A stretch of 35,042 bases of DNA from positions 1 to 35,042 of the forward strand of contig NZ_RDBR01000024.1 of assembly GCF_009663775.1 (NCBI RefSeq), written 5' to 3'. Source of the stretch: Lactobacillus sp. 0.1XD8-4. Its GTDB lineage: Bacteria; Bacillota; Bacilli; Lactobacillales; Lactobacillaceae. Position 1 is the first letter of the stretch. The number at the start of each line of letters is the position of its first letter. Below the pieces are notes generated by a model, which was not told where the DNA came from, made no database searches, and saw only the letters and a list, made by a program, of their open reading frames with translations. Positions 8,909 through 14,826 of the stretch are shown piece by piece. Position numbers and translations under genes: made by a program.

Positions 8909-10243
8909 ATGGGATTTTGGAATAACGTAAAACATTTATTTTCGACTGATCCACAGCAAAAGGCAAGTTCTGGTGATTGGGAAGGGCAAGGCTTTCATTT
9001 TAGTAACTGGGCTAACAGTAACTTTTTTGGAACTCATAACAATATATTGCGCAATAATGAAGAAGTCTTTGGAGTTATTAGTCGTTTAGCTAACACGTTA
9101 TCAAGTTTGCCGATCCATGAATACAAGGAATACGACCAAATCAACACTCCTGCATCTGATTTATTGCATGGTGAAGCTAATCCTTCGATGTCAGCATTCC
9201 AACTCATTAATCAATTAGAAGTATCGCGGAATACGGACGGGAATGCTTATGCATGGATTGAACGTGACGATAATGGTGCCCCAATTAATTTGTGGCCAAT
9301 TGATCCGGGTGCAATTACTGTTAAACGAAATGTTGATGACAATTCTATTTGGTATGACGTTAACAGCACAGAGTACCATTTCTTAGTCTTTAATACCGAT
9401 ATTATTCACGTCAAACACATTACCCCATTAACGGGGACACTTGGTATTTCGCCATTGGATGTGTTAAAAGGACCATTAAAGTTCAAAAAAGCAGTTGAAG
9501 ACTTCTCGTTAAACGAAATGGATAAAAAAGATGCATATATCATTCAATATGATCGTTCGGTTAGTCCTGATAATCGACAAGCGTTAATTAATGATTTTAG
9601 ACGAATGATTACAGAAAACGGTGGGGCAGTCGTCCAAGAAAAAGGGTTTGAGATCAATCGTTTTGATAGTAACTTCCAACCAAGTGATCTATCAACAACG
9701 AACTCAATCACTCGTTCAAGGGTAGCGACTGCCTTTAATGTACCCTTATCATTTTTGAATGAATCACTGGAGAGTGGCAACGGAAAGTCAAATGAACAAG
9801 TCATGCTGCAATTTGTTGAAATGACGTTAATTCCAATTGTGACGCAATACGAATCGGAGTTTAACCGTAAGTTGCTTAGTAATATGGAACGATCACAAGG
9901 AATCTATTTCAAGTTCAACATTAACGGTTTGCTTCGTGGTGATACCTCTTCACGGACAGCGTTCTACCAAACGCTGATTCGGAATGGGATTGCATCTGCT
10001 AACGATTTACGAAAATTGGAAGAATTACCTCCATCAGACGCTAAAAATGCGGATAAATTATGGATTACTGGTGATTTATACCCAATTGATACGGATATTG
10101 CAGATCGTAACAGCAAAAAAGGCACCTTGAAAGGAGGTGACAATGATGCCACAGACAACAGTGATTCCCAAATATCTGACAGTAAAGCAGGAAAGCAAGC
10201 AGAAAACAGCGTCAATGTATATCGACGGCGAAATCGTAACTGA
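8909..10243 (+). CDS. Portal protein (HK97 family)
   Basis: 444 residues; ATG 8909 with SD AAAGGAGGTG (8894-8903). The N-terminal N-N-E-E-V-F-G-V-I-S-R-L-A segment (about residues 49-62), L-I-N-Q-L-E-V-S-R-N-T-D-G-N-A-Y-A-W-I and the later N-G-K-S-N-E-Q-V region are typical of HK97-type portals. The protein forms the dodecameric DNA entry ring and anchors head and tail. The C-terminal tail (last ~35 residues) is low complexity and charged. It shares DNA with the start of the protease gene, read in another frame, for about 100 bases, which is long for a phage overlap. Confidence 0.93.
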   Translation: MGFWNNVKHLFSTDPQQKASSGDWEGQGFHFSNWANSNFFGTHNNILRNNEEVFGVISRLANTLSSLPIHEYKEYDQINTPASDLLHGEANPSMSAFQLINQLEVSRNTDGNAYAWIERDDNGAPINLWPIDPGAITVKRNVDDNSIWYDVNSTEYHFLVFNTDIIHVKHITPLTGTLGISPLDVLKGPLKFKKAVEDFSLNEMDKKDAYIIQYDRSVSPDNRQALINDFRRMITENGGAVVQEKGFEINRFDSNFQPSDLSTTNSITRSRVATAFNVPLSFLNESLESGNGKSNEQVMLQFVEMTLIPIVTQYESEFNRKLLSNMERSQGIYFKFNINGLLRGDTSSRTAFYQTLIRNGIASANDLRKLEELPPSDAKNADKLWITGDLYPIDTDIADRNSKKGTLKGGDNDATDNSDSQISDSKAGKQAENSVNVYRRRNRN

Positions 10244-10940
10244 CGAATATTACGACACTGATACCTCTGCGGCAGGTTTCCGGGATGCATTAAAAGATCT
10301 GGGTGATGTAAAGACAATTAATTTACATATTAATTCGCCAGGCGGTTCTGTTTTTGAGGGGATCGCTATTTATAACATGTTGAAACAGAATAAAGCGCAC
10401 ATAAACGTCTATGTAGATGGTTTAGCGGCGTCAATAGCAAGCGTTATCGCAATGAGCGGTGACGCTATTTTTATGCCCTCAAATTCAATGTTAATGATTC
10501 ATAACCCTTGGACGATGGCAGTCGGAAATGCTTCTGAATTACGCAAGCAAGCGGACGATCTCGACAAAATTACTGAATCAAGTATTCAAACGTATCTCGA
10601 TACAGCAGGTGACAAGCTCGATGAAACCACTTTACGTCAATTAATGGATGACGAGACGTGGTTAACAGCTAAAGAAGCCGTTGACTACGGGCTTGCAACA
10701 GAAGTTATTGAGCCTAATAAGGCTGCTGCTTCGATTAGCAAAAATTTTGCTCAACGTTATCGGCACGTCCCTGAACAGCTTATTCAAGCTTCTATTCAAA
10801 AACAACAAGCAAAGGTTCAAGAAGACGATGAAGTATTTCGTAAGCAACTTCTTGAACGGTACCAGAACAACTTAAAGGCAATTAATAACGAATTGCAAAC
10901 AATGAAGGAGGAACAAACACATGAATTTTTATCAAATTAA
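10143..10940 (+). CDS. Prohead protease (ClpP/S14 type)
   Basis: 265 residues from ATG 10143 (ATG 10146 has better spacing from AAGGAGG at 10131-10137 and is equally possible; the GTG at 10137 lies in the SD). The ClpP-like fold is clear: I-N-S-P-G-G-S-V oxyanion strand (63-70), catalytic Ser97 in G-L-A-A-S-I-A-S, and catalytic His120 in M-L-M-I-H-N-P-W. It cleaves the capsid scaffolding segment during maturation. It overlaps the portal gene 3' end by about 100 bases and the capsid gene start by 20. Confidence 0.93.
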   Translation: MMPQTTVIPKYLTVKQESKQKTASMYIDGEIVTDEYYDTDTSAAGFRDALKDLGDVKTINLHINSPGGSVFEGIAIYNMLKQNKAHINVYVDGLAASIASVIAMSGDAIFMPSNSMLMIHNPWTMAVGNASELRKQADDLDKITESSIQTYLDTAGDKLDETTLRQLMDDETWLTAKEAVDYGLATEVIEPNKAAASISKNFAQRYRHVPEQLIQASIQKQQAKVQEDDEVFRKQLLERYQNNLKAINNELQTMKEEQTHEFLSN

Positions 10941-12057
10941 GAAAAACGCAATGGACATGGGGGATGAAGTTCGCCAAGCCAATGAAAAATTAAACGAAAT
11001 GCTTGCTAACCCGCAAACCCCAACGGAAGATATTAAGGCTCAACAAAAGGTCGTTGATTCTGCTCAAGAACGTTATGAGGTTGCTCGTAAGCAAATGGAA
11101 AAGGCAGAAGCAGAGGCTAAGAAGAAGTTAAAACCTAATAGTGAACCAAGTCAATTATCTGAAAAGGAAAAGCGTGCGAAGGCATTTGCCCAATTAGTTC
11201 GTAATACTATGGCAAAGCAAGCTGTACCAGTATCTGTATACCAAGCCTTAGGTGATGATGATTCAACTGGTGGTAACAAGTTCTTACCTAAGACTGTCTC
11301 AACCGATATTATTACAGGACCACAAGAACATAATCCATTACGTGATATTTCAACCGTTACTCAAATTACTAATCTAGAAATTCCTCGACTTTCATTCACT
11401 TTAGATGATGATGGATTTATTGCAGATGGTGACACTGCTAAGGAAATTCAAGCTAAGGGTGACACTGTTCAATTTACCCGTAACAAGTTCAAAGTTAAGG
11501 TTGGACTTTCTGAAACTGTATTGCTTGGCTCAGACGCTAACTTAACAGCTTACGTGGAACAAGAACTTACTAACGGTGTTACTCGGAAGGAACGTAATGT
11601 AGCTTTTGCTGTTAACCCAACTAAAGCTAATGAAAAGCACATGTCATTCTATGATGATACTGTCGGTATCAAGAAGGTAACTGGTTCTGATCTTTATGAT
11701 GCTATTACTAATGCGGTTGCTGATCTTCACGAAGATTACCGTGAAAATGCAACTATTGTAATGGCGTACAAAGATTACTTGAAGATCATTAAGACTCTTG
11801 CCAACGGTTCTAACACTTTATATGGTGCACAACCATCAGCTGTTTTAGGTAAGCCAGTAGTATTTACTGATGCAGCAACTAAACCTGTTGTTGGTGACTT
11901 CTCATACAGTCAATACAATTATGATATCAATACCATTTATGACCAAGATAAGGATGTAGATACAGGTATTGAAAAGTTTGTTTTAACTGCTTGGATGGAT
12001 CATCAAATCAAGCTTTCAAGTGCATTCCGTATTGCTGACGTACAGGCGTCAAAATAA
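10921..12057 (+). CDS. Major capsid protein (HK97 fold)
   Basis: 378 residues; ATG 10921 with SD AAGGAGG (10905-10911) inside the end of the protease gene. Residues 1-85 form a charged coiled coil, the delta/scaffolding segment expected to be removed by the protease. Then comes the HK97 core with a P-x-x-V-S-T-D-I-I entry, F-T-R-N-K-F-K-V-K-V and D-V-D-T-G-I-E. The gene stops at TAA 12055, but an open -1 frame continues without any start codon to 12383. A slippery A-AAA and a stable hairpin lie at the stop. A longer isoform of about 487 residues is therefore likely (see next features). Confidence 0.95.
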   Translation: MNFYQIKKNAMDMGDEVRQANEKLNEMLANPQTPTEDIKAQQKVVDSAQERYEVARKQMEKAEAEAKKKLKPNSEPSQLSEKEKRAKAFAQLVRNTMAKQAVPVSVYQALGDDDSTGGNKFLPKTVSTDIITGPQEHNPLRDISTVTQITNLEIPRLSFTLDDDGFIADGDTAKEIQAKGDTVQFTRNKFKVKVGLSETVLLGSDANLTAYVEQELTNGVTRKERNVAFAVNPTKANEKHMSFYDDTVGIKKVTGSDLYDAITNAVADLHEDYRENATIVMAYKDYLKIIKTLANGSNTLYGAQPSAVLGKPVVFTDAATKPVVGDFSYSQYNYDINTIYDQDKDVDTGIEKFVLTAWMDHQIKLSSAFRIADVQASK

Positions 12058-12083
12058 CTTCCCCATCCGGTGATGATGGGAAG
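12051..12083 (+). promoter_or_regulatory. -1 frameshift signal at the capsid stop codon
   Basis: The tetramer A-AAA (12051-12054) lies directly before TAA. Lys-tRNA on AAA can re-pair one base back. CCCATC (12062-12067) then pairs with GATGGG (12075-12080), extended by CTT/AAG around a bulged C, to give a hairpin seven bases downstream. The heptamer is not a perfect X-XXY-YYZ (it is G-TCA-AAA), so efficiency may be modest. Confidence 0.7.
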
Positions 12084-12383
12084 AATGCAACTCCATCAAC
12101 GCCGAAAACAGGTGGGGACACAAATGAGAGTCAAAACAAACCTGCATCTAGTGCTGTAGCAAGTTCAGCTCCATCAAGCTCTGCTACAAGCACTAGTTCT
12201 TCAACTGATAAGCCAGCTACTTCCGCACAACCGGCAGTAGCTGATACTTTCAATCCTAATGGAGATGTAAAACCAACTGAAGATCAAACTATTCCAGAAA
12301 TTAAGGCCTACTTAGATGCACATAAGATTAGTTATGCGTCATCTGCAAGTAAACCTGACTTATTAGCATTGGTTAATAAGTAG
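12054..12383 (+). CDS. Frameshift extension of the capsid protein: Ser/Ala/Pro linker plus HeH-like domain
   Basis: Read in the -1 frame from ATA at 12054 the DNA gives 109 residues and stops at TAG 12381. There is no start codon with SD in this stretch, so it can only be expressed as a fusion. Residues 1-8 are I-T-S-P-S-G-D-D; about 20-65 are Ser/Ala/Thr/Pro-rich; about 78-109 read T-I-P-E-I-K-A-Y-L-D-A-H-K-I ... K-P-D-L-L-A-L-V, the pattern of the HeH/LEM-like domain (helix, short loop, helix with K-x-D/E-L-L-x-L-V). Extended capsid isoforms made by frameshifting are known in Lactobacillus phage A2. A surface-displayed domain on a few capsid copies is inferred. Confidence 0.8.
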   Translation: MTSPSGDDGKNATPSTPKTGGDTNESQNKPASSAVASSAPSSSATSTSSSTDKPATSAQPAVADTFNPNGDVKPTEDQTIPEIKAYLDAHKISYASSASKPDLLALVNK

Positions 12384-12404
12384 CAATAAAAGGTGGTGAT
12401 ATAT

Positions 12405-13655: not shown

Positions 13656-14054
13656 ATGACGCCTACTGCACGGATAGTGGGATTGTTAAGTGATAATGCG
13701 GATCACTTAGAAGATATTCTTATTGATAATATTTGTGCCTACATGATTGACGAAGAGAACGTCGACAATACACATCCAATCCTTGTTGTTTCCGAAGATA
13801 ACGACGGTCAACGTGACATAGGGAATAACACGATTCTTTCAACAATTAAACGAATATCAATCATGTTTTATTACCCTATTAACTTTGATGGAGATATGGA
13901 CTCAATTGAGAAATCAGTTGAGTCCTTTTTATACGCCCACGGAATCCGACGTTATCTCAATGCAGGACATGTAATGACTCCAGACACTAAAAATATAACG
14001 AACACATTGAAATTTAATTACAAACAAGATGAAATCACAGAGGAGGACAACTAA
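13656..14054 (+). CDS. Tail terminator-type protein (DUF806-like)
   Basis: 132 residues; ATG 13656 one base after the previous stop; SD AAAGGTAGG. Beta-rich with an acidic middle (E-D-N-D-G-Q-R-D-I-G-N-N-T) and a Y-Y-P-I-N-F-D strand. In related Lactobacillus phages the gene in this place belongs to the DUF806 family and serves as the tail terminator between neck and tail tube. Its stop overlaps the tail tube start (TAATG). Confidence 0.75.
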   Translation: MTPTARIVGLLSDNADHLEDILIDNICAYMIDEENVDNTHPILVVSEDNDGQRDIGNNTILSTIKRISIMFYYPINFDGDMDSIEKSVESFLYAHGIRRYLNAGHVMTPDTKNITNTLKFNYKQDEITEEDN

Positions 14055-14758
14055 TGGCTAATATTGGTCTGAAAACGCTCTATGTTGCATTGAAAAATGA
14101 AGATGGAACCACCATTGTAGATGCAACTAAAGGCCTTTCTGAAGCTGGTGTTTACGCAATTGATACCAATAAGTCACACCTTAACTTAGGTGCGCAAACT
14201 GCTAATATTTCAGCGCTTTCTGGAACACCAACAAAGATTAACGGTAACAATGAAGTGGTAGATATTTCTAATCCACCTTCTTCACCAACTGTTGCAATTA
14301 CAGCTAACTTAATTAATCCGGAAGTTAAGCAAAAACTGCTTGGTCGCCAACAACTTCCCAGTGGTATTTGGGTAGACTCTGATAAGCCTACTTATGCAGG
14401 ATTGATGATCGTTTCTCAATCTCCAGCAACGTTGGAAGATGTTTACTACAGTTTTGGTATGGGTGTCTTTACTGAAACTACTCAAATTGTTCAAACCAAC
14501 ACAGATACGGCCGAAACTCGTGAAAGCGATACTTTAACGTTCACTTCCATGGGCTTTTCTTACTTTAATGGTAAGAACTACGGCTTTGCACGTGCCGGGC
14601 AAACTGGTTTTGATAAGCAAAAGCTTTTCGATACTGTCTTCCCTGGACAAACTTTTGTTACTGCAAGTAAGGACGGTACTCTTGATCCTTCATTACATGG
14701 AGGTCAAGCAGTTGATGTCCGAACTGATGGCGAGAAGGAAGCTGGCGTGGGAAAATAA
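14054..14758 (+). CDS. Major tail (tube) protein
   Basis: 234 residues; ATG 14054 overlapping the previous stop; SD GAGGA (14040-14045). The start N-I-G-L-K-T-L-Y-V-A-L, then S-P-T-V-A-I-T-A-N-L-I-N and P-T-Y-A-G-L-M-I-V-S-Q-S are typical of phi13/TP901-type tube proteins of Lactobacillus phages. The C-terminal E-A-G-V-G-K is followed by TAA, but a perfect slippery heptamer at the stop and a downstream hairpin suggest a -1 shift into a 23-codon extension. The long form would have 257 residues. Confidence 0.92.
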   Translation: MANIGLKTLYVALKNEDGTTIVDATKGLSEAGVYAIDTNKSHLNLGAQTANISALSGTPTKINGNNEVVDISNPPSSPTVAITANLINPEVKQKLLGRQQLPSGIWVDSDKPTYAGLMIVSQSPATLEDVYYSFGMGVFTETTQIVQTNTDTAETRESDTLTFTSMGFSYFNGKNYGFARAGQTGFDKQKLFDTVFPGQTFVTASKDGTLDPSLHGGQAVDVRTDGEKEAGVGK

Positions 14759-14779
14759 CAACCCCACAACCAAGTGGGG
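14749..14779 (+). promoter_or_regulatory. Canonical -1 frameshift signal at the tail tube stop codon
   Basis: G-GGA-AAA (14749-14755) is a textbook X-XXY-YYZ heptamer, in frame and directly followed by TAA. A perfect stem CCCCAC (14762-14767) / GTGGGG (14774-14779) starts six bases after it, the usual spacing. Confidence 0.85.
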
Positions 14780-14826
14780 CGCCCACTGAAGTAATTAATC
14801 CAGACGGTAGCTCAACTACCGCTTAA
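14755..14826 (+). CDS. Frameshift extension of the tail tube protein (23 aa)
   Basis: In the -1 frame from ATA 14755 the DNA reads I-T-T-P-Q-P-S-G-A-P-T-E-V-I-N-P-D-G-S-S-T-T-A and stops at TAA 14824. No own start or SD. The first eight residues resemble the start of the capsid extension (I-T-S-P-S-G). A small fraction of tube subunits would carry this flexible Pro/Ser/Thr tail on the tube surface. In phage A2 the tail protein is also reported to use frameshifting. Confidence 0.75.
   Translation: MTTPQPSGAPTEVINPDGSSTTA

Follow-up and report, generated by a model that had tools for sequence, protein, structure and literature searches.

The window, by which we mean the whole stretch of 35,042 nucleotides analysed here, carries the head genes of a prophage, which are arranged as portal, ClpP-like protease, major capsid, connector and head completion. 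The ClpP-like protease gene (10137..10940, + strand) matched PF00574 (E 2.9e-35). The major capsid protein gene (10921..12057, + strand), which is of the HK97 type, encodes 378 amino acid residues in the 0 frame, including an N-terminal delta-like helical region, and ends with TAA at 12055-12057. Its product matched Phage_capsid (PF05065, E 5e-21) in Pfam, the major head protein family PHROG 10 (E 8.7e-60) among the PHROG profiles, and chain B of 7rwz (E 4.7e-98) in the PDB, and is about 47% identical to the capsid protein of Staphylococcus phage phi12. The predicted structure of the capsid protein had a mean pLDDT of 68.5, a quality too low to locate the C-terminus. The nearest named phages by DNA were the Lactobacillus fermentum phages JNU_P5 and JNU_P1, and the host is probably a lactobacillus. 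Scans of the window gave no Rfam match at gathering scores and no tRNA.

An earlier note on this DNA had described a -1 frame that stays open for 109 codons behind the capsid TAA, and the reading frames agree with this description. An open stretch of the -1 frame runs from 12039 to a TAG at 12381-12383, and the extension, counted from the codon at 12054 (12054..12383, + strand), consists of 109 codons and the TAG, encoding a Ser/Thr/Ala/Pro-rich linker (16 S, 10 T, 10 A and 8 P among the first 70 residues) and then a HeH domain. The frame had also been said to have no start codon; this is correct for any useful start but not literally, as the sole ATG, GTG or TTG of the window's -1 frame is a TTG at 12369, within the HeH domain. 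Among the 19 loci that we tabled, 17 have none of these codons ahead of the last 40 codons (the exceptions, L004 and L024, have one GTG each). By eye, there is no Shine-Dalgarno sequence before the extension, as also noted earlier, whereas the next gene on the 3' side has AAGGTGG near 12390. For 10 of the 19 loci, among them the window, the open -1 frame begins no more than three to five codons upstream of the capsid stop, and this confines the shift to the final capsid codons.

When the window was compared codon by codon with 12 relatives, pN/pS of the whole extension was 0.21-0.72 in the -1 frame, and the same letters read in the other two phases gave 0.87-2.54 (12 relatives). For the last 45 codons, the values were 0.09-0.69 in the -1 frame versus 0.94-6.87 in the other phases (13 relatives). 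The weakest signal of selection came from L026 (0.72 for the whole extension and 0.69 for the HeH part). Judging from these ratios, the -1 frame is conserved as protein under purifying selection. An overlapping -1 reading frame of this type, conserved as protein and without a start of its own, is what is found in capsid extensions of the A2, T3 and T7 kind.

The end of the extension (12288..12380, + strand; residues 79-109) is a HeH/LEM domain, matching PF12949 with an E value of 2.6e-8 and a score of 33.9 bits against a gathering cut-off of 28.9. The low-complexity linker and HeH-like end described earlier are both confirmed. In a structural model of the extension made with 35 aligned sequences, the linker was of low confidence, and the block mean pLDDT was 92-95 from residue 71; two helices predicted with high confidence at residues 80-89 and 100-107 are separated by an extended loop. 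No Ig-like (BIg2 or FN3) Pfam match was obtained for the extension, and the model, with its two helices and no strand, is not a beta-sandwich. A Foldseek search with the model gave only weak matches, the best being T4 endonuclease VII with an E value of 4.3, at 0.7 A over 31 columns, and a search of the PDB with the HeH sequence profile gave FluMu gp35 (2out, E 1e-4) and three other matches with E above 0.1. In other settings, the ligands of HeH, LEM and SAP folds are nucleic acid or protein. For Ig-like capsid extensions, a role in attachment to a surface or polymer has been proposed; such phage extensions were reportedly described by Fraser et al. in 2006 (cited in PMC5009743) as arising by frameshift or in-frame fusion. 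By analogy, our guess is that a HeH domain on the capsid exterior might serve attachment to a host or environmental surface or polymer.

The capsid gene ends with GCG-TCA-AAA-TAA, with A_AAA directly before the stop as the earlier note had stated, and the predicted shift site is G_TCA_AAA_TAA (12048..12057, + strand). After a backward slip of one base on A_AAA at the stop codon, a ribosome would read ATA at 12054 as its next codon. The usual heptamer X_XXY_YYZ, which is not required for frameshift capsid extensions, is not present, the window having G_UCA_AAA. In the available part of a 2016 review (PMC5009743), the minimal site for a -1 shift is Z_ZZN, and examples with A_AAG are listed; A_AAA before TAA is a tetramer of this form, and slippage there is therefore mechanistically reasonable. 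The lysine tRNA would slip alone or together with a poorly re-pairing serine tRNA. As G_UCA_AAA is not a full heptamer, the serine tRNA in the P site would find a poor match after the slip, so that shifting could be inefficient or depend on just one tRNA. Inspection by eye of the sequence upstream of the site showed no Shine-Dalgarno-like stimulator.

After removal of near-copies, all 13 loci in which the capsid gene ends with Lys-stop (window included) use AAA as the last codon, and AAG is more frequent than AAA in the remainder of each of these genes; the product of the own-gene AAA fractions over the 13 loci, which are not phylogenetically independent, is 7e-14. A_AAA occurs at the stop or one codon before it in all 19 loci tabled. 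At the same point, L024, L026, L048, L049 and phages JCL1032 and LFP01 have G_GGA_AAA, L045 and phage R10.1 have C_CCA_AAA, and L001 and L025 have A_AAA-AGC-TAG. Phage phiEG37K is an exception, with GGG-GAG-TAA and no A_AAA, and still has a HeH domain in the -1 frame.

A 59-nt two-tier RNA stem (12060..12118, + strand) starts 5 nt after AAAA, with an outer helix formed by 12060-12067 and 12111-12118 and inner helices within 12068-12080 and 12092-12104. The fold of 12058-12124 has a free energy of -27.9 kcal/mol (z -4.31), which was reached by none of 200 shuffles. The earlier note had placed a short CCCATC/GATGGG hairpin after the stop; a stable RNA structure is indeed predicted there, but it is the larger nested stem, at a spacing of 5 nt. 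We rejected the short hairpin, whose 26 nt folded alone give -10.0 kcal/mol, as the stimulator, since its bases are taken by the 59-nt element, in which each of the 14 pairs looked up had a pairing probability of 0.95 or more.

A similar two-tier stem was the minimum free energy structure in L018-L022, L004, L036, L007, L001, L024, L025 and L005, and a different fold (z -0.86 to -3.62) was obtained for L023, L026, L048, L049, L050 and L045. When 84 nt were shuffled, the z values were weak for L025 (-2.0), L023 (-1.5), L048 (-1.5), L024 (-1.4), L049 (-1.0), L050 (-1.0) and L045 (-0.9). In an alignment of 13 sequences, 94.7% of the cells can pair, versus 38.5-53.9% when the partners are slid, and 15 cells are doubly changed, versus 6.2 in shuffles (0 of 500 shuffles reached 15). 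Two of the five covariation measures, namely the pairs with a double change (5 versus 4.3) and the pair types (9 versus 11.7), did not beat the shuffles, and the changes are mostly between two sequence classes. With its short spacing (5 nt), low z value and partial covariation, the element is a candidate stimulator of the shift.

To see how widely this arrangement is distributed, we searched viral contigs with a HeH profile; 346 pattern matches yielded 214 relatives, and the best 80 of the 214 were kept for a census, in which a frame was called when an upstream reading frame of at least 150 codons ended inside the open HeH frame. Among these 80 loci, the HeH domain was in the -1 frame in 52, in the +1 frame in 10 and in frame in 5, and 13 had no such upstream reading frame. 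The 52 -1 loci, which were not dereplicated, have the slip sites TCA_AAA_stop (28 loci), C_CCA_AAA (15), G_GGA_AAA (5), G_GGA_AAT (2) and two others. The earlier impression of a shift at a non-heptamer A-AAA-stop thus stands as far as the incomplete heptamer is concerned, but the site is not a peculiarity of one phage, being the commonest in the -1 census. No start codon precedes the HeH match in 50 of the 52 -1 loci, whereas 8 of the 10 +1 loci have one, suggesting that separate initiation is possible for the +1 loci. Clustering of the capsids from the census loci and 11 loci of an earlier set at 90% identity gave 35 groups, of which 27 are -1, and the listed member has TCA_AAA_stop in 13 of these 27.

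The upstream proteins form eight groups without a BLAST link to one another (E 1e-5, half coverage). We scanned ten representative upstream reading frames covering the seven groups besides that of the window, and nine of the ten were major head proteins, belonging to five PHROG families (10, 544, 422, 247 and 29). The tenth, from L090, is a truncated portal reading frame that ends with a capsid-type shift site and is followed by a HeH domain in the -1 frame, probably as a result of a deletion joining the portal gene to the capsid gene end. Among named phages, the HeH domain is in the -1 frame in JNU_P5, JCL1032, LFP01, LF1, R10.1 and phiEG37K, in the +1 frame in five Javan phages examined, Pika and phiMH1, and fused in frame to the protein at the capsid position in P7.1, phiAQ113 and KC5a. 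None of the 13 annotated phage records examined with the domain in the -1 or +1 frame has a joined coding sequence for the fusion, and capsid forms of this kind are therefore liable to be overlooked by annotation and in proteomics.

Taken together, the conserved -1 coding, the lack of a useful start, A_AAA at or near the stop in all 19 loci, the stable, partly covarying RNA element at a distance of 5 nt and the canonical heptamers in relatives make a programmed -1 frameshift that adds the linker and HeH domain to some capsid subunits, as the earlier note had proposed, the best reading of the locus, and we hold it with high confidence. The frame, the site, the RNA element, the selection and the domain can all be read from the sequence itself. 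Because the frame, the shift site and the domain recur in relatives and the -1 frame is under purifying selection, the arrangement is not a matter of chance. Most ribosomes would terminate at the capsid TAA and produce the 378-residue capsid protein. A minority would be delayed by the stop codon and by the 59-nt stem that follows at 5 nt, move back by one base on A_AAA and continue for another 109 codons, producing a capsid protein of 487 residues with a flexible linker and a HeH end. Both forms share the capsid body, and both would be expected to be cleaved by the head protease and to assemble together. By analogy with phi12 (available part of PMC8569155), the ClpP-like protease would presumably cut the N-terminus off both forms; with the cut site taken from the alignment to phi12, the calculated mature masses are about 30 and 41 kDa. 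We infer that slippage occurs and that the extended form is a minority product incorporated into the shell. A fraction of the subunits would then carry a HeH domain on a tether, most probably on the outer side of the shell, and display on the head surface would be expected by analogy with known capsid extensions.

The extension might instead be a separate small protein with its own non-standard start (ATA at 12054, or ATT further in), coupled to termination of the capsid gene. The ATA shares bases with the stop codon, a layout known from coupled genes, and occurs in 16 of the 19 loci tabled, but it is an unavoidable product of AAA-TAR, and it is absent in L001, L025 and L045, which keep the frame. 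Moreover, the Shine-Dalgarno sequence seen for the next gene has no counterpart by eye before the ATA. A stand-alone HeH/LEM gene is indeed listed beside the capsid gene in a Streptococcus agalactiae phage (available part of PMC10221047). The 13 of the best 80 census loci without a long upstream reading frame ending there, some of them in reading frames with start codons, and the start codons of the +1 loci also favour a separate protein; the in-frame fusions in P7.1, phiAQ113 and KC5a, by contrast, suggest that the fusion is the working form. We therefore regard a separate protein as improbable. Transcriptional slippage, in which RNA polymerase would insert an extra base while copying the A run and the fusion would then arise by ordinary translation, appears still less probable. 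There are A runs at nearly all -1 sites, and longer ones in two capsid relatives without HeH (seven A in L006 and six in L031), but the window has only four A, which is too short for efficient polymerase slippage, and the presence of an RNA stem after 5 nt is consistent with slippage of the ribosome. A sequencing error or a decayed in-frame fusion, for which the in-frame fusions on other capsids (5 of the best 80 of 214) might be cited, can be practically dismissed, since independent copies of the same break occur in more than ten genomes, viral contigs and phage records whose flanks differ and the purifying selection in the -1 frame contradicts it.

The frameshift extension resembles several known systems. 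According to the available part of the 2016 review (PMC5009743), frameshifting in coat protein genes is established for phages A2 and T3 and for the Listeria phages PSA, A118 and A500, and Ig-like extensions are indifferent to the route (-1, +1 or in frame), so the earlier remark that extended capsid isoforms are known in A2 agrees with this source. One likeness is to gp5 of A2, also a Lactobacillus phage, in which a -1 shift at the capsid gene end produces a C-terminal extension and an essential second capsid component (PMC5009743, same part). In A2, however, the site is the canonical C_CCA_AAA one codon before the stop, compared with G_UCA_AAA_stop in the window, and the 86-residue extension appears to be a different domain without a HeH motif (Ig-like in that review's account). 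We had considered the A2 extension as a HeH relative, and this was ruled out on reading the A2 sequence. With the Ig-like extensions of T3 and A2 and the coat protein shifts of PSA, A118 and A500, the window shares the attachment of one kind of domain by -1, +1 or in-frame routes, and it differs in its payload, a HeH/LEM domain on a long Ser/Thr/Ala/Pro linker. In S. agalactiae phage vB_Sags-UPM1, a HeH/LEM domain is likewise encoded next to the major capsid gene, but it is annotated as a separate gene of 84 residues beside a GpE-type capsid gene; recoding is not mentioned in the available part of PMC10221047, which labels the stand-alone protein DNA/RNA-binding.

Phage phi12 has a capsid of the same family as the window and also an open recoded frame at the capsid gene end, but this is a +1 frame at CCC-AGC-TAA (L261, 1843-1855) with a 20-residue tail and no HeH domain. 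The available text of PMC8569155 reports two bands of the phi12 capsid protein (29.5 and 32.6 kDa), both without the N-terminal region, and a main mass of 30,374 Da; the word "frameshift" is absent from that main text. Our calculated masses are 30,375 Da for the main form and 32,310 Da for the +1 product, which fits the second band, with other causes possible.

In the literature searched, which covered few subscription papers, we found no report of a HeH capsid frameshift, in keeping with the earlier view that this payload is less described. What is new in comparison with the known capsid frameshifts is the HeH payload and the UCA_AAA_stop site. Since the unrelated HeH domain lies after the stop of the head protein gene, in the -1 or +1 frame, or forms part of the same reading frame, in five PHROG families, decoration of capsid subunits by recoding does not appear to be tied to Ig-like domains. 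This points to partial decoration itself as the selected trait, and UCA_AAA_stop would be an addition to the -1 sites of bacteria.

The identities of the extensions and of the capsids do not track each other. The capsid of L007 is 45% identical to that of the window and its extension 75%, with the shift site and stem nearly the same letter for letter; the capsids of L020 and L021 are 80% identical and their extensions 90 and 94%; and the capsid of phage LF1 is only 26% identical, yet the same GCGTCAAAATAAC is found at the stop. The module therefore appears to move between capsid genes, and we read these sequence comparisons as recombination moving site, stem and domain together; an alternative is convergence of the shift sites combined with transfer of the domain. 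We are evenly divided on a broader proposal, in which the site, stem, linker and HeH domain would be a mobile module exchanged as a unit between unrelated capsid genes of Lactobacillales phages, and N_UCA_AAA_UAR would be a widely used -1 site there, outside the classic heptamer rule, that also serves other payloads (FN3-like domains and a conserved 20-21-residue tail) on capsid-like or tail-like proteins.

The pattern CGTCAAAATAR followed by CCCC gave 50 matches in which the stop closes a reading frame of at least 60 codons, and 32 of the 50 have a -1 tail of 20-21 residues. These short tails (in L151, L165, L181, L191, L206, L207, L218 and others) are nearly all of one type (I.AP....TPT.DGA.I...), some of the contigs being near-copies. 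In L151 and L182, this motif also forms the end of a small in-frame protein, and the 20-residue +1 tail of phi12 resembles this type. Two pattern matches lie in one locus in L191, L207, L218, L221 and L254. In L209 and L241, the same shift site closes a reading frame of 343 codons and leads to a 112-residue -1 extension that by eye resembles FN3. Capsid relatives from Bacillales and an Enterococcus bin (L038, L029/L043, L002 and L040) have an open +1 frame at CCC-TAA, which by eye is FN3-like in L038 and BIg2-like in L029 and L043.

The major tail protein gene of the window (14054-14758; PHROG 88, E 2.5e-35) ends with GTG-GGA-AAA-TAA, which is a canonical G_GGA_AAA at the stop. A CCCCAC...GTGGGG hairpin lies on the 3' side of this stop, and the -1 frame there adds 23 residues (14741-14826). 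The arrangement is retained in L018-L021, TCA-AAA-TAA is found at that point in L001 and L025, and an open -1 frame after the tail gene is absent in L023 and L035. The tail protein gene is thus likely to be a second site of -1 frameshifting, as in phage A2.
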